This document shows, piece after piece, positions 9,022 to 22,350 of a stretch of 64,000 bases of DNA (positions are counted from its first letter, which is position 1; each line of letters opens with the position of its first letter). Both the position numbers and the translations under genes were made by a program. The stretch is from Planoprotostelium fungivorum. Its lineage: Eukaryota; Evosea; Variosea; Cavosteliida; Cavosteliaceae. Below the pieces are notes generated by a model. The model did not search any database, had not been told where the DNA came from, and saw only the letters and a program-made list of their open reading frames with translations. Where the stretch lies: the NCBI GenBank assembly GCA_003024175.1, contig MDYQ01000076.1:43046-107045 (forward strand). The letters are read 5' to 3'.

Positions 9022-9528
9022 TCATTCTCTTCGTGGCCTCTTTGCACCTCCTTCTCTACACGTGCATTCCTGATGGTTCGACATCCATTCCATGATCCTT
9101 CTACGGGGGATCAACAATTGAGAGGAGAGCCTCTGTCTGTCTTCCATGGGGATGTCTTCTCTTCCATCACGATGGTATGCGCTGGACAATGCCGCCGTCT
9201 GATCGTCCGTGAGGTTGTTGGTTGCTCTCTGTTGGCGTCTGTTGGCCCTGCGGCTCCACCATGTTCTCATGGTCTTGTGGCTGAGGCCAGTGAAGCCACC
9301 CAGCCACTTGAGGTCTTCTTCCGTCCAGGGTCTGTCTTTGTGAAATGAGACTTCCAGCATGATGCGTTGGTCTTGTGTATATACATGGCGTTTAGCGGGT
9401 GTGGCAGTGTGATGGTGAGTTGGCGGAATGGGTATGAAGGGAGAGCTGTCGATGGGTAGCAGCATGCTGTTTGATGGTGCTGTGTCCAGAGGTGTATACA
9501 TAGAGTTGATAGATGAATCAGCTACCAT
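9022..9528 (-). CDS. Divergent double homeodomain-like protein, locus 1
   Basis: Single-exon gene, 168 residues, ATG at 9528. Residues ~45-100 look like a homeodomain (YTQDQRIMLEVSFHKDRPW, WTEEDLKWLGGFTGL, then WWSRRANRRQQ in the recognition helix). Residues ~105-160 form a second, related domain (LSSAYHRDGREDIPMEDRQR and EWMSNHQECTC). The tryptophan of helix 3 is kept in both. The usual Asn51 is replaced by Arg in the first domain and kept in the second. A C-x-C pair follows the second domain. Loci at 15643 and 20996 share this second domain. Probably a nuclear DNA-binding protein; the target and role are unknown. A shadow frame on the plus strand was ignored. Confidence 0.7.
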   Translation of the reverse strand: MVADSSINSMYTPLDTAPSNSMLLPIDSSPFIPIPPTHHHTATPAKRHVYTQDQRIMLEVSFHKDRPWTEEDLKWLGGFTGLSHKTMRTWWSRRANRRQQRATNNLTDDQTAALSSAYHRDGREDIPMEDRQRLSSQLLIPRRRIMEWMSNHQECTCREGGAKRPRRE

Positions 9529-10434
9529 GAGGAAAGAGAAGGCAGAGGGGACTGATTGTCATTAGAACAAAGCGTTATATAATGTGGTCTGCTCACGGAT
9601 GATTTTCGGTTTCGTGTGTTGCGTGTCTTCGTTCATGAATGAAACTGGCGGCTGTGGTACATATCTTAGAGATCCGTCCAACTATCGCATGTCATCATAC
9701 ATGCGTCTGGTGTTCAGAAACTCACAGCTGAAGGCAATCTTCTCTTCCCACAGATGTCTATATCTTCCTCCACGTTCTGTTGCACCCATCGGCCCTGCCC
9801 ACATCAGCATGCGATTATAGACATGCTGACACCTACCCCCTCTGAATCGAATAGCCCTCTCGTCATGGTTAGATCCATGTTTAACATGTTTAGAGTCCTC
9901 TTCTCGTCGTTCCTGCCAGTTCGCGTTGAGAATCGTCAGGAGAATTGGCTGGCGTGAGGTGTCACAGAAATGACAAGAAAGAATTCCTACTGAACATAAC
10001 CCACACCTTATGAAAGAGAGCGTTCCCTTTCTTGCAGGTTGTCTGATCTTCTCTGCAGTAGGTTTGGTCACAGACGATACGGCACCACAGGACCACAGGC
10101 GCAGAATATGACGCTAGCTCTTAAACCCTCCTCCATACGTCCGATGGCGAGTCTTCTCCCCAGGGCCCCCGCTTAAAAATGGACGTACCATGTGTCCAAT
10201 CTTCGGGTCATTTGCGATGGAGCTCGGTATATCCGAGATAGGGCCGCATTCATTCAAAGTCAATTCGCGGCTTCTGACAGCGACTAAAAAGCTCTGAGCG
10301 TTTTACTCCTTTTTATGCATGAACTGACGGCCGTGTGACATAAACGATCCATGAGATGGTGGAGCGTGATGGGCACCTCTTCCCATTTCGGAACAGGATC
10401 ACAGAATTGGAGATGAGCTCGATTTTGAGAATGT
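9529..10434. other. Intergenic region, ~0.9 kb
   Basis: Lies upstream of the minus-strand homeodomain gene and downstream of the minus-strand NUBPL-like gene. A TATATAA-like element at 9575-9582 is a plausible promoter for the former. A 129-codon minus open frame at 9682-10071 has no ATG at its start and no recognisable motif. Nothing else is supportable. Confidence 0.5.
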
Positions 10435-11630
10435 TTATTCGATGGTGATGTCTGGACCGTCCGCGGCCACTTGGTCTAATCGGTTCATCACCTTCACGCG
10501 TTCAGGTTATGAGGTGATGATCGGATGATGATGTCGCACCTTCTCTGCAATGTCGAAGTAATGTTTGGCCTGGGGACTGTCTGGTTGAGCCACCACGATG
10601 GGTTTACCTTCATCGGAGAGCTCTCTGATCTTTCCATGAAGAGGTACCTGTCCCGATCTCAATGATACGCTGCACGTAATCATCACCTCTCCCAAAAAGT
10701 GGAGCTGCATCTTCTCGGCTGTCTTCTTCGCTCCGTCGTGTCCAAAGATATGAGATATCTCGCCGCAGTTGCCACACACATGGTAACTCATGTTCTCAAC
10801 TACACCCAATATCTAAAATCTACATCACTCTTATGTCGCGTCATTCGATGGGCTGCACATGATCTCACCGGGACATCCACTTTTCTGAACATGTTCGCAC
10901 CACGCACGGCGTCTAAGAGGGCGAGGTCTTGTGGAGTGCAGACGATGACGGCACCGTCTAATGGGACCTTCTGACAGATGGACAGCTGCGCATCGCCCGT
11001 TCCTGGCGGCAGATCGATGACCATGCAGTCGATGTCGCCCCAATTGGTTCCTCTCAAGAGCTGATCGATGGCAGACATCACCTATGATGATACGTAAGCG
11101 TCACGCATGCAGATGGACGGACGTACCATCGGGCCTCTCCATATCATGGCGGAATCTTCTTCAACGAGGAACCCCATGGAATTGCATTTGATTCCGTAAT
11201 TGGACAGTGGTATCATGCGATTGTTGGCATCGACTTCTGGCCTCTCGGCTTTCAAGTTCATCAATGTTGGAACGGAAGGTCCATAGATGTCGGCGTCGAG
11301 TAATGCGACCTGATAGACTCGAATCAGCCGAGTGAATAAAAGTATGTCATTTACCCTCTTATCTTTTGATGCTATGGCAAGTGCTAGGTTCACTGCAGAT
11401 GTTGAGCGATCGAATGATCATCTGTATGATATATACATACGATGGATGAATTCACCTGCTGTTGTCGATTTACCCACTCCACCCTTCCCACTGGCCACTG
11501 CTATGATCTTACTGATTCCAGGAAGAGAGACCCGAGTAGGTGGGTGAGCTCCTCGTGTGACACGGCTGTGAAAACGTATCGGTTGGTGGCAATTAACGTG
11601 AGAGACGATGTGATGTGTTGTCCTCAACAT
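10435..11630 (-). CDS. NUBPL: Mrp/NBP35-type P-loop ATPase, NUBPL/IND1-like
   Basis: Exons (descending) 11456-11630, 11355-11392, 11127-11309, 10869-11081, 10687-10812, 10540-10647, 10435-10491. The protein has the deviant Walker [16 protein letters not shown], the [14 protein letters not shown] switch, [16 protein letters not shown], and near the C-terminus a [15 protein letters not shown] segment with the CxxC that binds an iron-sulphur cluster between two subunits. It ends in [18 protein letters not shown]/Ind1 delivers Fe-S clusters to mitochondrial complex I. The N-terminus ([19 protein letters not shown]) is basic and His/Thr-rich with no acidic residue, as a mitochondrial leader would be. 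Cytosolic NBP35/CFD1 is the alternative, but NBP35's N-terminal four-Cys motif is absent. Confidence 0.85.
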
Positions 11631-11707
11631 GGAATCGGCGCGTTTGTGATGTGATTCACATTTACATCATATCATAGCGCAAGCCGCATCTTCTGCGTCA
11701 CGGCAAC

Positions 11708-12572
11708 ATGGGAGGATTATTCTCTCGCTCGAAAGATGCTCCAAAGAAGGTCACAGCCCACGACAGGGCCGTGTTGGATCTCAAAGTCCAGCGTGATAAA
11801 TTGAAGCAGTATAAGAAGAAGGTAGAGTGTTCATCATGTATAAAATTGAATGTCTGTCAGTGTGAAGGCATGGCTGAGAGAGAAACGAAAGTTGCTAAAG
11901 AATTGTTGGCTGCTGGAAAGAAGAAGGAGGCATTACTGGCTTTGAAGAAGAAGAAATATCAGTTGTCTCTGTTGGAGAAGACAGAAGGTCAATTGTCTAA
12001 TGTCGGCGAAATGGTGCGTTTGATGATTTGTCTTAGACGTGACGATTGAAAGTGCAACAGATCGACTCCATAGAATTCGCACAGATCGAAGTCAAGGTAT
12101 TTGAGGGACTGAAGGAGGGAACAAAGGTGACCCATATCCACGTCCCATTTTCATTCATCTCCATCCAGGTACTCAAAGAATTGAACGACCAGATGAAGAT
12201 CGAAGACGTCGAGAAGCTCATGGAAGAAGCCGCCGAGGCCAATGAGACTCGACAGGTGACGACGTCACATCATCCTCTATGATACATTATTCAACGTCTA
12301 CAGAGAATCGAAGAGGCACTCAGTGGTAAATTGACCGAAGACGATGAAGAAGAAGTCTTAGCCGAACTGGCCAAATTAGAAGAGGAAGAGCTGAACCTTC
12401 CATCTGTTCCTAACACAGACATCGGGACGACAACTCCCCCACGGAAAGGTAAAGACATGACCTTCGATCGACACATATTGTCGCACGTCCATCATCTCAT
12501 ACGATCTTCTCATCAGATCATCTGATCTTGACAGAGCCGGATCAAGCACAGAGGACACAACTCGCCGTATAG
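11708..12572 (+). CDS. CHMP6: ESCRT-III subunit CHMP6/VPS20
   Basis: Exons 11708-11821, 11861-12013, 12061-12126, 12169-12255, 12304-12448, 12535-12572. The protein starts MGGLFSRSK, a Gly-2 context suited to N-myristoylation as in known CHMP6. It continues with the basic helix KVTAHDRAVLDLKVQRDKLK and RETKVAKELLAAGKKKEALL, the conserved IDSIEFAQIEVKVFEGLKEG, and an acidic C-terminal region with LTEDDEEEVLAELAKLEEEE. The first intron is 39 bases, a multiple of three, so the frame stays open through it; removing it restores the exact family spacing before the RETKVAKELL segment. CHMP6 links ESCRT-II to CHMP4 on endosomes. Confidence 0.92.
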
Positions 12573-12628
12573 AACCCATTTACATAATAAAAAGAAAAAG
12601 TCCATCATCTTTAATCACATGTCGTCCA

Positions 12629-14906
12629 TCATGCATCTCTCAAGATGAACCGCATGGCCTTGTCTACGCTCTCTCTCGACAATCCATCGATGGTGAGCCA
12701 GCCGTCTGTCCAGTCCACCCAACAGACGTTCTTCTTTCCAACCTCTTTGAGATCGATGGTGGGACGGTTGCATGATGACCTCTTTGTATAGAAGGAGAAG
12801 GCCACGACATCTCTCCTTGTCTTTTCTACGGCATCTGGTAGTCCTAATACAGTCCAGTGGCTGATCTGTCTCAAATTTAATCTTTAAAATTCTCCGACCG
12901 ATTTAATTCTTTTTAGATTGGGACCTCCCACCTTTCCGTACTGCACCATGTGAGAGGACTTTGGTTGTGAGTAGAAGATCGCAGTGGAGTGCTTGGAGGC
13001 TAATTGGTTCATAAAGTCCTTAAGTATGGTGGCGTGAAGGTCTGTCAGCATGTTTGGAATGTGTAAGTGAGTTAACTCTGACATCGTCTTCATCAGCTTC
13101 TCCTGTGCCCTCTTTTTCTCCGATTCTGTGCCTAAAAGAAGATTAAAATATTTTTCGTACGGATTTAATCTTTCACGTGTGATGTCAGCATTCATTCTAT
13201 ATCGTTTCGATTCATTCTATCTCTCTGCGATGTGGAGAAATTCGGGGAAAATTCCTCACCGCTCATGACATATCCCCTGTCGTTCATCTCTGCCTTCACA
13301 TTCTCTTCCGTGAATATTCTTTGAACTTTCTCGTGGTTGCTGTCCACCCACTTCCTCTCCATGATGTCTAGTCTGACTGTCGTTGACTCGATCTCTTTTC
13401 CCGCCTTTTGTACCGTAGAATCTTCCGAGAATCTTCCGGCTAGCTGGGTCGTGTAATCTTCCGAGAATCTTCCGGCGGGTCGAGCGGGAGAATATTCTGT
13501 GAATCTTCCAGGTGCTGCCTCTAGCTCTTTGGCTTGGAAGGTGAATTTGACTCCCTTGTATCTACAACGAGTTGAACATGATGATGAGATGGACATCGTG
13601 ATGATGAGATGGACATCGTGATGATGCGGTGAGAGATGAATGTGTGACGATGTGAGAGTGATGTGAGACGACGATCACAGAGAGGATGAGCGGATGAGAT
13701 CGACATGTGATGATGGAGACATGATCGTCACCTGGCCGATCTGAGACGCATGACCTTTTTCAGATCTGCTCTGGAGGCCACACGAAGGGAAGAGTTGGGC
13801 GAGGTGGGGTGAGTGTGTGCGGTGGTGATGAAGTGCCGCTCGATGAGCCAGCGACAAAATTCTTGTGGGTCACAGCTGTTACCCTCCCATTGAATCGAGA
13901 CGTTGATAGGTTCTTCCACGGGGAGTTTCTGTCTCGATTGAGTGAATCTCGACGTGAGTTTATTCTATTTTATTCTTTTCCTCTCGTATGAGGTGAAGGA
14001 GGAAGAGGAGATGATGTGATGATGATGAGACACACCTCTCCATTAATCCAAATACCTCCATCCTCTCGTAGAATGTCTCTAACATTCGAGTTGATGCACA
14101 TGATGTAGGCGTACTGATCAAAGATGTCCAATCGCATGATGGAGGAGAAGTCGACTTCGTCGAGGGTTTCCTTCAGTGCCACTTTTAATGCCTCGGAGGT
14201 TGTAGCTCCGAGGACCACCATCTCGAACACCTTAGCTTGGGAGAGCTTTATGAGAACACCTTTGATTCGAAGAGTCTCTCTCTGTAAGAGACTATTGACC
14301 TGTTCGAGTCAATATAAGAGATGTGCATGAGCGGTGATAGAGGATGTACCATGAGTGGATCATGAATGGACACGAAAACAGTATCCTCCGTCTCAGTTTG
14401 GACTTGACAATCGGTTTCGTTGAGCTTAAGTGTTTTCATTATCTGGGCAGATAGATCTGCGATGGCCTTCTCGGCTGTGGCTTTAATGATGACTCGAAAG
14501 CTGTCATCTTTTTTCTGCTCGAGATCAGTGTTCGAGATCGGCACGAAGAAAGATGAGATCGAGACATACATCCGTGTTGGGTCGCTCTAGGAAGGTGATG
14601 GCGGCTGGACATCCGAGGAGGTGAACTCCCGTGACTTCGTTCTGTTTGTTTACTTGTTCTTTGACTTTCTCCGCTTGCTGATCGGTGAGAGATACGTAGG
14701 TGGTGGCCCCGTCCAATTGAATTGCATCTTCTTCCAGTTGTAAATCCATCTGCTCGCTGAGTTCTTGAATCAAATCGGCCTTGACGTCTCTAGAATGAGT
14801 CACTCCCCTCGAAATGATGGAGAGGTAAAACCTCCCATCTGCATCGTCACATGAGTCTCGACTTCTTCACGTGAAGAAAGACGCTCTTCTCACCGAAGGG
14901 GATCAT
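12629..14906 (-). CDS. Unrecognised multi-exon protein with repeated alpha-beta segments
   Basis: Spliced by frame from descending exons 14894-14906 (putative start), 14570-14838, 14350-14514, 14036-14299, 13732-13964, 13260-13561, 12932-13131, 12629-12865; about 560 residues. The N-terminal half contains several short segments with hydrophobic strand/helix alternation, such as TTYVSLTDQQAEKVKEQVNK and VIIKATAEKAIADLSAQIMK, which could be small alpha-beta (KH- or RRM-like) folds. The middle has a degenerate short repeat built on AGRFSED. The C-terminal exon ends WVDWTDGWLTIDGLSRESVD. No named family is apparent. The start ATG and the 13132-13259 intron are the least certain parts. It is convergent with CHMP6. 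Confidence 0.5.
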
Positions 14907-15642
14907 CTGTATCTTTCTTTTGATCGTCTCTCGAACATGCGCGAAGTGTGTATGTCATTTTTCAACTTGAAAACGAGATCTTCCGTTTTTCCGGGAAGAC
15001 CAAATCTCCCCCAGCCTTTCTTTTGTTCTCCTCTTACACCCATTGAACTGTGTCTAAAGCATCCATATATCGACTAAGACTCAAGGCTTCTATCGTGACA
15101 GAGTGGGTAAATTGGGTAAACGAGCGGCAGTGGAAAATATCCCTCGTGTAGAAAACTCTCTTGCTCTTTCTTTCCGTTACTTCATCCTTGTCCAATTCGA
15201 GCAGAGAGACCTCCACTCCGCGTCGGAGACGATATAGAGGGAGGGTTCTCAAGGAGAGGCTGTCTCATTGTTCTGCTCGTTCTTATTTTTGGGCCCTTTT
15301 GATCTTCTTTATCTCGCCTGGTTCCGGGATAAAAAAGAAGGCGAACCACCTTTCCCATAGATTTCACATGTCCTGATTCTTAAGGTGGTCGTTTTCTGTT
15401 CTATCTTTTCCAGCCAGCACTCCTCCCCCTCAGCTTCTTCGTTCTCTTCGATTAGCTAACAGTAGAAGGGCACCTGCTTAAATTGACAGCGGCCTGTTTC
15501 TCTCGTGCAGCTTCAGACAGGAATCGTATTGTGCGTCTCGTCACGACGCGAATTTTTGAAGGCGTCGTCTCATCCTTAGAGACTCGTGGCCCGTAGCAGC
15601 GACCAGCAGAGGACATATTACATTGTGGAGGTCTTAAAACAA
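14907..15642. other. Intergenic region between divergent genes
   Basis: About 0.7 kb between the minus gene ending upstream and the homeodomain-like gene at 15643. Several short open frames occur on both strands but none has motifs or convincing splicing. It presumably holds two divergent promoters, and possibly an upstream exon of the minus gene, whose start is uncertain. Confidence 0.45.
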
Positions 15643-16857
15643 ATGGAAAGACTGAAGACCCCGTCGATGATGCCATCAGTGAACGTCTCTATCCTCTTCC
15701 AGACGGTGAGTTGAAGAGATAGAACTCGGCTGACTCTCAACAGGTATATCAACTGTGTTCTGTATTGTCAGTGGACATATCTGGGATAGAAAGTGAAGAG
15801 CAGAGGTGCAGACTATCGAACACGGTGAGAACTTGAGAGATGTAAAACATCTTCTCACCCGATCAGACCGGACAGCTACGGTTTCACATCGAGCATCTGC
15901 AACAGACCTTAGAGGCCATGAATTCCATCACAAAAGATAAAAGGGTGGAAACTTTAGATCGGAAGCCACAAACCAACGAGAGGACAAAGATTTCTGATCT
16001 GTTAGACACTGCCCCAAGTTCATGGTCGAAAGAGACTACCTGCCCCAACACCGTGACTGATGAGACAGAGGAGGAATGGAAAGAGGATGAAGTCCCGAAA
16101 CGAGATGTGATCTGGAGGGGCGCTTCTGTCTTGTCGATGTCGTCCATGCAGAAGGACGTGACCGGTTCGATGCATTCTCGTGAGTCATCAATCAACATTC
16201 GACACAATGTCTGACTCCTTAAAGAAGCCGAAATGAAATGTCCCGTTTTGTCCGCCGTGAAGCAGCATGGTGAGTCTCATTCTTGATCTCTATCATTAAT
16301 ACCTCTCAGTCGAAGGTGTCTTTTCGACACCCGACGACGACTTCAAAGTCACCGAGTTCTCTCACCATCACTTCTCCATATCAGACGCTCGGCCATACAC
16401 TCATCCATCATCTCACCTTGCCTCCCGCCCCATCCTCATGCTCCCCACGAAGAGAGGAAAGAGGTTCACTAACATCCAACGCACCATGCTCGAGTCCGCC
16501 TACAATTCGGACGAGAGATGGACGCAGGAAGACATCAACGGCCTGGTCGAAGCCACGGGCCTTACTGCAGAGCAGATCACCCAGTGGTGGTATAGGAGAC
16601 CCAACAACACCACCTCCCACAGAGAGTCTGTCGAGCTGAGAAAAGCACTCTGCAACGCCTACCACAGCCAAGGCCGCAACGACATACCCGTAGACGAGAG
16701 AGAGACACTTGCCAAACAGCTCAACATACCCAAAGACAAGATATCGTACTGGGTTTGGTACCACAGACAGTACTGTGGATGTAGAGTAGAGGGAGCAGTG
16801 AAGGGAACGAAGCGAAAGAGGGGCTTCTCAGCAGAAGATGCAAAGAAGAACATGTAA
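15643..16857 (+). CDS. Divergent double homeodomain-like protein, locus 2
   Basis: Exons 15643-15705, 15744-15824, 15867-16179, 16228-16269, 16310-16857; about 348 residues. The N-terminal two thirds are polar and acidic without recognisable domains. The C-terminal ~140 residues repeat the two-domain layout of the 9022 gene. The first domain has KRGKRFTNIQRTMLESAYNS and TQWWYRRPN in the recognition helix. The second has LCNAYHSQGRNDIPVDERE and SYWVWYHRQYCGCRVEG. Helix-3 Trp is kept in both; position 51 is Arg in the first and Tyr in the second. The same C-x-C follows the second domain. A basic tail (KGTKRKRG) could be a nuclear signal. Probably a DNA-binding regulator of unknown role. The intron 4 acceptor could shift by three bases. 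Confidence 0.7.
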
Positions 16858-17089
16858 AGACGATTTTGAGTGAATAAATTTTGGAGATGATGATGTGAAT
16901 TTCTCGATGGGAAGCGAAGGCGAGTGTAAGTCTTCCGCATCTAATCATCGACCCATCACGCGGTGTTCAAGCGAACCAATCATGTGATCGTGAACGGACG
17001 AGTCAGCGAGTTGACTCCGACATCGATCAATCGTTTCTCATGACGTCACAACGGCCTTGGCTCGATGAAATAAAAAAGATGCGGCGACA

Positions 17090-18727
17090 ATGGATCAGCA
17101 TCACCCCATAGAGATCCTCTCGAGCGATGAAGAGAGGGATGAGACAGAAGATCGATTTGGATTATTCCTCCGCGGCTCTTTTGACGGCAGAGAGCCCACT
17201 AATGCCATATCCATTCCTGATTCTCCTCCTCGAAAGAAGGCGAGGCGGACAGAACCTCAAAGGGTGTGGGAGTTACCATCTTCCAAGGCGTCGCATTGTC
17301 GATTCAATTCCGATGGTGGGCGTATCATTGCTTCTGTGTGTGATGTGATGTCAGGTAGTATATTATCCGTCTGTTTCTACGACCGGTTAGCGTGAGTGGT
17401 AGACAAATGGTCTCATGATTAACATCACATCAGCCTTTATCGAGTTCCAGAGAAGGAACCTTGGAGAGTGTACCGATCGAAAGATTCTTCTCATGGCTTC
17501 TTATGCTCTTCTTTCGGCACCATTTTGGAAGACAGGAAACTGATCGCGTGTGCATTCGGATCTCTGATTAGAGTCATCCAGTTTTATTCCTCGCGAGTCC
17601 ACATGGTGCGACTATTTGTTCGACACAACCATCGCTTCTCACGAACAATCAGAACTTGCAAGGACATGGACAGAACATATCAGCCATCACCTTCCACCCG
17701 TGTAAAAAAGGGATCTTATTTACCAGCAGTAGCGATAAAAGTTGCAGGATGTGGAGTTTACAACACAAAGGAGTCGACACGAGAGGTCATGTTGTCTAAT
17801 GCATCGTCCATCCCTCTCAAACGATAGAACAGGTAGGGCCAATCGGCAAGGTGTTTGCATTGCCATCTTTGCAACGTACCGACCCACGTTCGACATCATC
17901 TCAATGGACGTCGATGTAGATGGAGATCAGCTCATCCTCTGTGATCAGAGCACCATCGTCATCTTCGCTCTCGATTCAAAAGAGGTGAATCCATCAGAAT
18001 TTTTTCACAAGATATACATTTTAATCGATTTTATCACGACTGGACGACTCAGATCCGGCAGACGAGCCGTTTGGAGGAGTATGAGAATCTTCGAGGAAAT
18101 TTCCAACCCCTGCTGGTAGTGCGGAGTAGAGTGTACACGAAGAGTGCCCACGGAGAGACGAAGAACATGATAGCCGTCAGGTATCATGAAACAACATCAT
18201 CACGTCCATCTCGGCATCACATCACCACCGAAGACATCGTGATCACCATCCATCCGATCATCACACGAATGAAATCGTATCAGGTGCATCGGAAGACATG
18301 TCATCAGTCAATCGAACGACATGCTGCGATGCTGGTCCATCGACAAGAGGGTGACAATCATCATCGTGATGGATGAGACTCACACGGTGATTAGAGGACC
18401 ATCTTTCGGGTAGATGAAGTCATGAGCTGTCCGATAGTGATATCTAGAGACAAGAACATGATGTCTTACGGTCAGCACCTCCATCGACACAAGCACCATC
18501 TCATGTGATCTAACAGGTAACATGAGTGGAGAATTGCACTTCTTGACGATGGAGGGACAGAAGAAGAGCCGATGCAAGGTGAGCATCATCTGAGATGGTA
18601 ATGTCTGATGAAGAAGGTCACCGAGCATGCGATTGCTGCCTTAGACGTGACGGCAAATTTTTTGTGCATCATCGATGATAAGGGGGGAGTTCATCTGATG
18701 TCCTTGACAACAATAGAGGAAGAATAA
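17090..18727 (+). CDS. EED: WD40 protein of the EED/ESC (PRC2) family
   Basis: Nine exons: 17090-17391, 17434-17605, 17653-17785, 17833-17984, 18053-18180, 18284-18350, 18395-18470, 18517-18578, 18614-18727. After an acidic N-terminus with a basic cluster (RKKARR), the protein follows EED block by block. IACAFGSLIRVIQ parallels the block before EED's GHGNAINE motif, then GHGQNISAITFHPCKKGILF and SSDKSCRMWSLQ, then FDIISMDVDVDGDQLILC, then CIGRHVISQSNDMLRCWSID, and finally the KNMMSYGNMSGELHF and EHAIAALDVTANFL blades. EED is the WD40 core of Polycomb repressive complex 2, which methylates H3K27. It lies between a homeodomain-like gene and an enoyl-CoA hydratase. Sequence divergence is high, so the call rests on motif order; a generic WD40 protein is the alternative. 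Confidence 0.7.
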
Positions 18728-18967
18728 ATCTTGTGAACATGTATTTATTTGTGATAGAAAGTCTACTCTTCATACTGATTGAGGATCTAACAGCATGATG
18801 GCGCTCTGTACAAATACCAATATATCCCTTTTTTTTCACTTGGTGCATTTGGATGGCTCGAACATCAGGCTGATCTCCTCTTTACCTCTATAGAACTTGA
18901 TAAGGTGCACGCCAAACTTAAGTTTGGACACAAACAACCAGCCAAATCATCCCGACTTTACAAAACC

Positions 18968-20112
18968 ATGCTGTCCGCTCGTATCATCGGTCAACGTTTT
19001 CGACCATCTTCTGTGCAAAGTAGATCCTTTCGACGCCAACAATCTAGTCTCGTCGAGACACAAGTCTCGGATGGCATCGCAATCATTCGACTCAATCAAC
19101 CTGAGACGCTCAATGCATTAACGGAGAAGATGGGAGACACCTTCTTAGGATGCATCGCAGACTTGAATCGTAGGAGCGACGTGAGGTTTGTGTACATCGC
19201 GATGAAATCTTCGATAATGGAGATAGGTGTGCCGTCCTCACTGGTGCAGGCAAAGCTTTCTCTGCTGGAGGGGATCTTCAATTCCTTCTCGACAGAGCTG
19301 CCGATACACCCCAAAATAATGCAGAGTTGATGAGAAAGTTCTACTCTAGATTCTTATCTGTGCGATCTCTCAAGGTACCAGGTGTGTCTTGTTTCATGAT
19401 CTCTGTTCAGAACCGTATGACTGTGATCGACGTCGCCAACCTGCCTAGTTCTCAGTGCCATCAATGGACATGCAGTTGGTGCTGGTCTCTGCTTAGCTCT
19501 GGCCACAGACATCCGCCTCGCCGCCCGCAGCGCCAAGATGGGAGTCACATTCACCAACTTAGGTGCATATCATATTATCCACCCTCCCATCTCTTCAACA
19601 CCTCACACGCCCCTCCATCACATCGTCTCATCTTCTGATGTAGGGATCCATCCTGGCATGGCAGCGACACATTTCCTTCCATCTCTGATTGGAAACCAAA
19701 ATGCAGCTCATCTGCTTCTGAGTGGTGATCTCGTATCTGCAGAAGAAGCCCAACGATTGGGTGTCGTTCTCAGCGTGAGTCTCACTCGTCCCATCATGTT
19801 GCATCTTGCACGTCATCTCACTTTGGACAGGTGCACGATGATGGAGATCTGATGGACAGAGCGATGGCGATGGCTGCTTCTCTCTCTTCAAAGTCTTCGG
19901 TTGCCATACAGACAACGGTGAGAACTCTAAGAAACAAACAAGAGGTAGACATAGAAACCGCGCTGTGGAGAGAAGGTGATGTCTGCATCCATCACCTCCA
20001 TCGGTCTGATGATCTCCCAGCATCAGCACAAGCAATTTGCTATAGCGCACCTGATATCGTAGAGGGAGTCAACGCAGTGAAGGAGAAGAGGAAGCCAACG
20101 TTCCACAAATAA
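18968..20112 (+). CDS. Enoyl-CoA hydratase/isomerase family protein
   Basis: Exons 18968-19185, 19227-19381, 19449-19562, 19644-19774, 19831-19975, 20027-20112; about 282 residues. The basic, Ser/Arg-rich N-terminus (SARIIGQRFRPSSVQSRSFR) looks like a mitochondrial presequence. The crotonase fold is clear: ALTGAGKAFSAGGDLQFL-type first oxyanion segment (here CAVLTGAGKAFSAGGDL), then SAINGHAVGAGLCLALATDI for the second oxyanion hole, then GVTFTNLGIHPGMAATHFLP and the C-terminal VEGVNAVKEKRKPTF. In true hydratases Glu residues near FANLGxxPE are catalytic. Here the equivalent reads TNLGIHPGM, so the second catalytic acid may be missing, and the activity could be isomerase, hydrolase or other. 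Substrate unknown. Confidence 0.85.
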
Positions 20113-20495
20113 ACGAAGATGGTAGACTTTGTCATCATGCACACAACACTTCACAATAGATTGAGCGATGATGCAGTAGCGAAAAAAGAATATTGAGGTG
20201 GAAGACGAATTCGAGAGACCTCTATCTTTGCATCAACAGCTAATCCATCATCAACGATGGACCATCATGCAGAATCTCACTTTTTCACTCATAGATATAG
20301 ATCCGATGATAATAGATCCGTCCACGTGAATCAGTGTCCATATCTGGGAGGCGTTCCTCAGACTCGTCCTCTACGGAAGTCGTGAGTTGTTTTTCTTCGT
20401 CTCCAGCTGTCACGCAGCGACATCTCAGTTTGTAAAACTAACTCTATCCGTACAACAGACACACCGCATAGACCGACCCCAACAACAGCATCAAG
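20113..20495. other. Intergenic spacer
   Basis: No gene seen in about 380 bases between the hydratase and the next small gene. It should contain the 3' end of one and the promoter of the other. Confidence 0.5.
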
Positions 20496-20812
20496 ATGAA
20501 TACCGCCGCACAGAGACTCCTCCCTCACTTCATCACGAACCCATCGTCGCACATCCTTCAGTACTCGGCAGCAGCCATCGTTGGAGCATCGGCGACATAC
20601 TACTGGTCATCCTCTATCAAAGTCGAGATGGTCGTCAACGATGAGAAGGTGTGGAGTGGAGTCGTAGGACGATTACTCACGATGCGACAGAGACAATATA
20701 AGAAGGATATGCGCTCGTGGTTGCTACACAGACAAACGAGTTCGAAGAGGGACGTGAGATTCAGTACCTCACATTGAATGTATGGGAATCGATTGCACGA
20801 CGTTTGGAATGA
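20496..20812 (+). CDS. Small single-pass membrane protein
   Basis: Two exons, 20496-20655 and 20703-20812, give 89 residues. The 47-base GT-AG intron between them is supported by frame only. The first exon has a hydrophobic helix (HILQYSAAAIVGASATYYW) after a short polar N-terminus that could act as a signal anchor or mitochondrial inner-membrane helix. The second exon reads YALVVATQTNEFEEGREIQY and ends WESIARRLE. I do not recognise a family. An AATAAA-like signal follows at about 20827. Size and layout would suit a small organellar membrane subunit, but that is a guess. Confidence 0.5.
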
Positions 20813-20995
20813 TGTAAGAAGGGAAGAATAAATTAAGAAGTCTATAGATGATGAGTGTCTGTGTGATACTTTGTGTGAACAGTGGATGATGGGTGGTAAT
20901 CTCTTACGCTCGACCATCGATGAGAAAAGAGTGAAACGTGACAAAAAATGAAGCTGATTCTACAACTTCTGTTCAACGGACATCTGATACATCAA

Positions 20996-22350
20996 ATGGA
21001 GGAGGCTTCAGAGAGTGATGCAAACGGAACGAATCCATCCTTCTTGCGAGAAGAAAAAAAGCTGGGCAAGATGCACGACTCGCTAGATACGGATGTGGCT
21101 GTAGCTGACGTGACTCGTTCGATCGGTGACGATGATGCAACTTCCTCCGTACAAGAATTAACGAACGGTTCGGAAATATCGAAACCAATGATCGACAACA
21201 TCGAGATGGTGAGATTACTCGTGCTATGATAGCATTCTGCGAAGATCTTTGATCGGCTGATAAAACTTAGGCTATCCTCGAATTACAGAAGCAGTTCCAA
21301 ATTGAAAGACACCTGAGACGGGAAGCGGGTGATGCTGACACGTTCTAATGACATCCAACTGATACCACGAAGAGGATGAGATCCTTCAACTCAAATCACA
21401 AGTGGAAGAGTTGCAAACGTACATCAGAGATTACCATGCGAGACGATCGAGTGACGGTGTGATTGTCCTTCCACCTCTTACGCTGAACTGTTACAGCTCA
21501 GAGGACTCCACAGAAAGAGAAGAAGAATTCAAAGACATCGCAGAGAGATATGACACCCATTCATGCATCGTCACACATTAAGCCGAGCCAAGAAGCTGAA
21601 GACAAAGAGGTGAAGCGTTACACCGATTTCCAAAGTTTCACGCTTTTGAAAGGACACGAAAGAAGAACAAGAAAAACATGATGAGAAAAAACCAGACAAG
21701 AGAAAGAGACATGAAGACAAGAAGAAGGAAGAGAAGGCGGAGAAGAAGAAACAAAAGAAGGAAGACACATCACCATCAGATGATCCAACTGGTGATGCTA
21801 AATCGAAACCAGAGAAGGTCACAATCAGCAAATCTTACGAGAGGGTATTTTATTTCATTTTATTTCTCATTCGACTCCGTCATCATCCATCTATCCCGGT
21901 GTGATGCGTCACATCTCCTGCATCATCTCTTGCATCATCATCCAGTTACCTCCATCTGATGCATCATCAGCTGAACGGAGGTGACGGCAACATCTACCTG
22001 AGATGGAGGAACCACAACGCTCCCTTCCCCACCGTGGATACCTTTGTGACCCTCTGCTCGACTTTCCACCGTGGAAACACGAAAGACATCTCAGAGGACG
22101 ATCGCCAGGCCATCGTGAAGAAGCATCGTGTGACCGAGGCTCAGGTCAAGAATTGGGTCAATAACCACAAACGTCTCTGTAAATGTATAGTGAAGAAGAA
22201 GGTGAGAATCTCATCATCACGCACCATCATCACGATCATCATGTAACGACCACTGACATCTCTTACCACCTCCAAATACTTCGTCTTCCACCATCCATCT
22301 CATCCATCACATCACTGACATCATCTCAGCCTCCGACGAAAAAGTCATAG
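20996..22350 (+). CDS. Homeodomain-like protein with coiled coil, locus 3
   Basis: Exons 20996-21208, 21271-21328, 21373-21450, 21497-21609, 21653-21844, 21971-22201, 22330-22350 splice in frame; an in-frame ATG at 20948 could also start it. The N-terminal third is acidic. A coiled coil follows (ILELQKQFQIERHLRREAG, then EILQLKSQVEELQTYIRDYH), then a very Lys/Glu-rich linker. The C-terminus carries one domain matching the second domain of the 9022 and 15643 proteins: TFHRGNTKDISEDDRQAIVK then KNWVNNHKRLCKCIVKK. Trp48 and Asn51 of a homeodomain recognition helix are kept, followed by the same C-x-C. This gene lacks a clear first homeodomain. The coiled coil suggests dimerisation. Probably a nuclear DNA-binding protein. 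Confidence 0.65.

Follow-up and report, generated by a model that had tools for sequence, protein, structure and literature searches.

A probable double-homeodomain family expanded in the genome of Planoprotostelium fungivorum, with a candidate metal site in its C-x-C subgroup

A stretch of 64,000 nucleotides from Planoprotostelium fungivorum (assembly GCA_003024175.1, contig MDYQ01000076.1, positions 43,046 to 107,045; hereafter the window) carries three genes, named here genes 1, 2 and 3 (Table 1), which, judged from their sequences, very probably encode members of a double-homeodomain DNA-binding family. The best explanation overall, to which we give a probability of about 0.55, is that they are regulators with two homeodomains (HD1 and HD2), and that the subgroup in which HD2 is followed by two cysteines one residue apart (C-x-C) has a candidate zinc site. 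A preliminary description of the window had noticed a group of divergent homeodomain-like proteins with a C-x-C tail. The observation is real and its main points are correct, and in kind it is a double-homeodomain family expanded in this genome. Beyond that description, C-x-C is present in only a minority of members, is associated with a cysteine at homeodomain position 17 and a histidine at position 52 (Cys17 and His52), and lies near the end of the reading frame.

Homology and homeodomain identity of the three genes

The three loci had been thought to share one domain, and an independent profile agrees with this. The HD2 family profile was built of 21 rows, all of them taken from parts of the genome other than the window, and at E <= 1 it matched exactly three frames of the six-frame window (2.6e-24, 1.3e-21 and 3.3e-14), which belong to genes 1-3. 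With 20 residue-shuffled copies as a control, one gave E 0.018 and the other 19 gave nothing below 10. The pattern W-x(2,3)-[HN][HKR]-x(1,4)-C-x-C has three matches in the window, in genes 1, 2 and 3, and the C-x-C reported for all three proteins is present in each. The conserved core motif is also real, but its helix-2 spacing is DI-x2-(D/E)(D/E)R and not x3 as first written. Identity among the three genes is 27-42% in their alignments, and the gap between the His and C-x-C is three residues in genes 2 and 3 and two in gene 1.

Pfam calls genes 1 and 2 Homeodomain, and the domains were not placed in unrelated known families. The second homeodomain that had been described upstream in two of the proteins is matched with the presence of PF00046 over two stretches each in genes 1 and 2. 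As a tandem each of them reaches about 40 bits (40.4 bits in gene 2), while the single domains are only around the curated cut-off of 22.9 bits. Gene 3 has 20.5 bits with PF00046, which is below this cut-off, and the family profile still matches it.

Structure prediction points to the same fold: the AlphaFold2 model of gene 2 consists of two three-helix units, as would be expected of paired homeodomains, and the model of gene 3 is helical with a predicted local distance difference test score (pLDDT) of only 66. In the fold comparison of these two models the best rows were homeodomains and the rows were mainly homeodomains. In the sequence search of the PDB, DUX4 rows ranked highest, and DUX4 also made up six of the top seven rows of the fold comparison. 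As a comparison with the TALE class, to which HD2 may or may not belong, residues were counted between the helix-1 Leu and the helix-3 Trp: there are none extra in HD1 of genes 1 and 2, and two in HD2 of all three genes. The aligned ranges of the fold comparison for HD2 differ by three, and TGIF and Exd are among the fold rows of gene 3.

Family members across the genome

The genome-wide count that had been proposed was made on the 36.9-Mb assembly of 471 contigs, whose contig 5 ends with the window. Used as queries, the domains of genes 1, 2 and 3 found 29, 29 and 10 places at E <= 1; three further C-x-C members, used likewise, found 27, 16 and 13 places. The resulting list has 29 family loci on 13 contigs, often clustered: contig 316 has 11 loci, of which six lie at 4.6-11 kb, and contig 337 has four within 2.4 kb. 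There were 25 HD2 rows (24 distinct) and 23 readable HD1s, 19 of which were in the same frame as an HD2. The HD2 counts leave out C460, whose HD2 is that of C374, and the HD1-only places C337d, C99 and two on contig 316 near 73 kb. Outside the reading of C-x-C are also the weak matches on contigs 90, 59, 123, 174 and 455, a second one on contig 99, and most of the 145 PF00046 places mentioned below.

Alignment A3 gave 78 pattern matches in viral contigs and 236 in prokaryotic genome contigs, and tblastn confirmed none in either collection. Within this genome and the viral and prokaryotic collections, the double-homeodomain family has so far been seen in one genome.

Near the start of contig 316 (4.6-21 kb) there is a tight cluster of double-homeodomain frames without C-x-C, and several of these frames have W-V-A-A-R in HD2 and long charged tails. 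Two gene copies with the same HD2, L057 (contig 374) and L058 (contig 460), have long Arg/Glu-rich repeat tails of unequal length; their best DNA piece is 96% identical over 2.4 kb.

The C-x-C subgroup and its candidate metal site

Among the rows read, C-x-C follows helix 3 in seven of the 24 distinct HD2s, namely in the three window genes and in the members on contigs 452, 124, 120 and 434; the contig 22 member has the second Cys of C-x-C only. These seven members hold 20 HD2 cysteines, at positions 17, 56 and 58 in six of them, which have no HD2 cysteine elsewhere, and at positions 55 and 57 in gene 1. Cys17 is found in 6/7 members with C-x-C versus 0/17 without it, and is absent from all 28 distinct homeodomains found at the 30 loci of the genome with the highest scores, and His52 is found in 7/7 versus 4/17. 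All seven frames, as read, end 6-24 codons after C-x-C (counted by eye). In the gene 2 model position 55 is the last of helix 3, which places Cys56 and Cys58 directly after this helix. In known homeodomains residue 17 of helix 1 lies opposite residue 52 of helix 3. The pair 17-52 is not mentioned in the available parts of PMC2893186, PMC8910618 and PMC6573468.

A His-x3-Cys at the end of a helix, together with C-x-C and a cysteine in helix 1, is a pattern that makes a zinc site plausible. We propose that in the C-x-C subgroup one zinc ion would be bound by Cys17 (helix 1), His52 (helix 3), Cys56 and Cys58 (just after helix 3), and that it would replace the side-chain contact between helices 1 and 3 of ordinary homeodomains and cap the protein end. 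That these four residues form a metal site joining helices 1 and 3 has, from the sequence pattern, a chance that we put slightly under even. More tentatively still, we suggest that a homeodomain with helices 1 and 3 stapled by zinc may have evolved inside a double-homeodomain family, its HD2 fold being kept (or metal- or redox-gated) while the DNA-reading residues drift freely. In gene 1, where Cys17 is missing and C-x-C comes one residue sooner, the site, if any, would be different (perhaps with His21) or lost. If the metal site is true, a metal ion can take the place of side-chain packing and salt bridges in a homeodomain, and the family would be the second in which double homeodomains have acquired metal ligands, after the untested proposal for HOCHOB (PMC4448998, as far as the available part of that paper goes).

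The question of descent was approached with two trees, one of HD2 alone and one of HD1 plus HD2, with the trait columns removed from both; they were mostly unresolved, with one well-supported inner branch of 21 in each. Several results weigh against the metal site and the explanation around it. Gene 1 is an exception, with Ser17 and its C-x-C at positions 55 and 57. His21 and His52 occur together in 3/17 members without C-x-C, and Cys at 56 occurs in 1/28 ordinary homeodomains. An unrecognised intron with a stop could make the C-terminal placing of C-x-C apparent only. The association of Cys17 and His52 with C-x-C (Fisher) ignores descent, and on the HD1 plus HD2 tree the C-x-C members cluster (4 changes, 14/500 shuffles as low), which fits plain inheritance; the HD2-only tree had no such clustering (300/500 shuffles). 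The independent-pair test had one usable pair on well-supported branches, and co-variation was not confirmed on the tree. On the side of the fold, every Foldseek row had E > 0.001.

The same data bear on the strongest rival, in which the family is the same but there is no metal: Cys17 would be a small residue of helix 1, and C-x-C would serve in redox or disulphide chemistry or as a tail that docks a partner, preserved in one subgroup through descent. The seven members may be a single clade (approximately unbiased (AU) test, p 0.19, not rejected), which together with their clustering on the HD1 plus HD2 tree means that joint descent can explain the linkage of Cys17 and C-x-C, and gene 1 retains C-x-C without Cys17. 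Yet the cysteine positions are the same in members as divergent as the three of the window, and His52 is retained throughout the subgroup. We consider this rival a real possibility, and on balance a rather doubtful one.

Possible paired DNA reading

Within the preferred explanation, double-homeodomain regulators with a candidate zinc site, the two domains would sit close together: the helix-3 Trp of HD1 and the helix-1 Leu of HD2 are 24 residues apart in gene 1 and 21 in gene 2. By analogy with DUX4 they may read adjacent half-sites. The contact residue 51 had been said to vary among Arg, Asn and Tyr, and so it does: HD1 has Arg there in genes 1 and 2, HD2 has Asn, Tyr and Asn in genes 1, 2 and 3, and C452 has Arg. 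Varied residues 50, 51 and 54 would give each paralogue its own target site. Asn51 is present in 10/23 HD1s and 7/24 distinct HD2s, and from this minority we infer that in many copies the DNA contact is either unorthodox or made chiefly to the backbone.

The absence of Asn51 from 13/23 HD1s and 17/24 HD2s could also be read as decay, the genes being homeobox relics that have lost DNA binding and are under weak constraint, and the extreme divergence and the failure to find a full HD1 in gene 3 are in line with this. But the frame of gene 2 is open across five exons, and the helix-3 Trp (W48), which the preliminary description had seen kept in the three window genes, is present in 23/23 HD1s and 24/25 HD2 rows (Phe in C434). 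We consider decay very unlikely. Tandem helix-turn-helix domains occur in Tc1/mariner-type transposases, and gene 3 has a weak HTH_SB row (E 0.087), but an origin as helix-turn-helix pairs of a domesticated transposase was set aside as scarcely credible, because PF00046 is the best row for all three genes (by far for genes 1 and 2), the fold rows are mainly homeodomains, and the few codons after C-x-C leave no room for a downstream DDE domain, for which no search was made.

Local clustering and descent of the window genes

The preliminary description had suggested a tandem or segmental birth of the three loci, and this stands in part. When the 29 loci were placed at random, three fell within 13.2 kb in 0.095% of 20,000 trials, with a locus list that was drawn up after the cluster had been noticed. 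Family loci are clustered on the scale of the genome, but the three window genes lie on both strands with unrelated genes between and beside them, and DNA comparison of the three genes found nothing beyond short matches of chance size. Their sisterhood as one clade was neither shown nor rejected (AU test, p 0.21).

Comparison with known double homeodomains

According to the available part of PMC4901127, which cites Clarke 2013, Dictyostelium has double homeobox genes. Compared by description only, the likeness is that of a double homeobox in a eukaryote of unicellular lineage. The available part of PMC4448998 describes HOCHOB of Caenorhabditis as a double homeodomain with two cysteines in the linker, for which the authors proposed a metal site, untested. 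As far as that description goes, HOCHOB is similar to the window family in being fast-evolving and lineage-bound, in the extra loop 1 residues of the second domain and in the proposal of metal binding. The cysteines are placed differently, however: in HOCHOB they are in the linker between the domains, whereas in the window family they are in helix 1 of HD2 and just after helix 3. An identity with HOCHOB as so described was rejected, as the linkers of genes 1 and 2 are without cysteine; that of the contig 434 member has one.

DUX4 of mammals is similar in its two adjacent homeodomains, and it was the top PDB sequence match and among the top fold matches. It has canonical recognition helices and is not known to have a C-x-C. 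DUX arose in early mammalian evolution (PMC4448998, same part), and its likeness to the window family is therefore likely convergent. In Dictyostelium, mating is regulated by the homeodomain-like proteins MatA and MatB (PMC5580921, available part); set beside the family by description, they are also divergent homeodomain-like regulators in an amoeba, but have one structured domain. Precedents therefore exist for double homeodomains, for fast evolution and for the idea of metal binding; what sets this family apart is where its cysteines stand, inside HD2.

Among the matches listed in literature searches on double or tandem homeodomains in protists, on homeobox genes of Amoebozoa and on those of Protostelium, there was no survey of this family, and among those listed for metal-binding homeodomains there was nothing matching.

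Homeobox content of the genome

PF00046 was found at 145 places at least, 140 of them over the cut-off, on 74 contigs (150 of 173 candidates scored). If neighbours up to 1000-300 bases apart are joined, 118-128 places are left. Places are not equal to genes: the count includes split exons and near-identical pairs, and weaker places may be missing. For Dictyostelium 13 and for Acanthamoeba 25 homeobox genes are given in the available part of PMC4053784. The homeodomain places are far above these numbers. If the species is unicellular, this makes its genome one in which to test how homeobox genes expand in lineages other than animals and plants.

Two contigs each carry near-identical homeobox genes as an inverted pair, with pieces alike over about 3 kb: contig 168 (23.8 kb and 79.8 kb; pieces 99.2-99.9% identical) and contig 65 (12.8 kb and 50.5 kb; pieces 96.6-99.6% identical). 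They may be recent inverted duplications or assembly artefacts.

Gene models and neighbouring genes

Table 1. Positions of the three genes and their homeodomains in the window
Feature	Position	Strand	Remarks
Gene 1, double homeodomain protein	9022..9528	-	Open 168-aa frame; PF00046 40.1 bits over two stretches
Gene 1 HD1	9223..9396	-	Canonical length; residue 51 Arg; 22.3 bits alone, just under cut-off
Gene 1 HD2	9058..9216	-	Ser at position 17; C-x-C (CTC) at 9058-9066
Gene 2	15643..16857	+	Five exons, inferred without transcript; GT-AG introns
Gene 2 exons	15643-15705, 15744-15824, 15867-16179, 16225-16269, 16310-16857	+	
Gene 2 HD1	16447..16608	+	Residue 51 Arg; 23.6 bits alone; three-helix model
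Gene 2 HD2	16621..16782	+	Cys17 at 16651-16653; His52 at 16762-16764; CGC at 16774-16782
Gene 3	20996..22350	+	Multi-exon; internal and upstream exons partly worked out; last exon 22330-22350 inferred
Gene 3 HD2	22028..22186	+	Cys17 at 22055-22057; CKC at 22178-22186; family profile E 3.3e-14

In gene 2, removal of four GT-AG introns of 38-45 bases gives a single open spliced frame (predicted), and the last exon holds both homeodomains. The N-terminal part of gene 3 is coiled-coil-like and lysine-rich; its HD2 is on an in-frame stretch at about 21971-22201, and the stop is at 22350. In the exons of gene 3 worked out so far only HD2 is clear and no full HD1 was found; on the frame that holds HD2 the HD1 profile gave E 0.01 and 12 bits, which was not counted as HD1. 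Just before this HD2 (21971-22030) there is an R-W-R-N-H stretch modelled as helix, which may be a remnant of the recognition helix of HD1.

Nine nearby frames of the window were searched in Pfam and six had a row. Four of these stayed below the cut-off: two frames of an NUBPL-type NTPase, an Snf7-like frame and one of an enoyl-CoA hydratase. The two above it were another enoyl-CoA hydratase frame and a TRM5/TYW2 methyltransferase.

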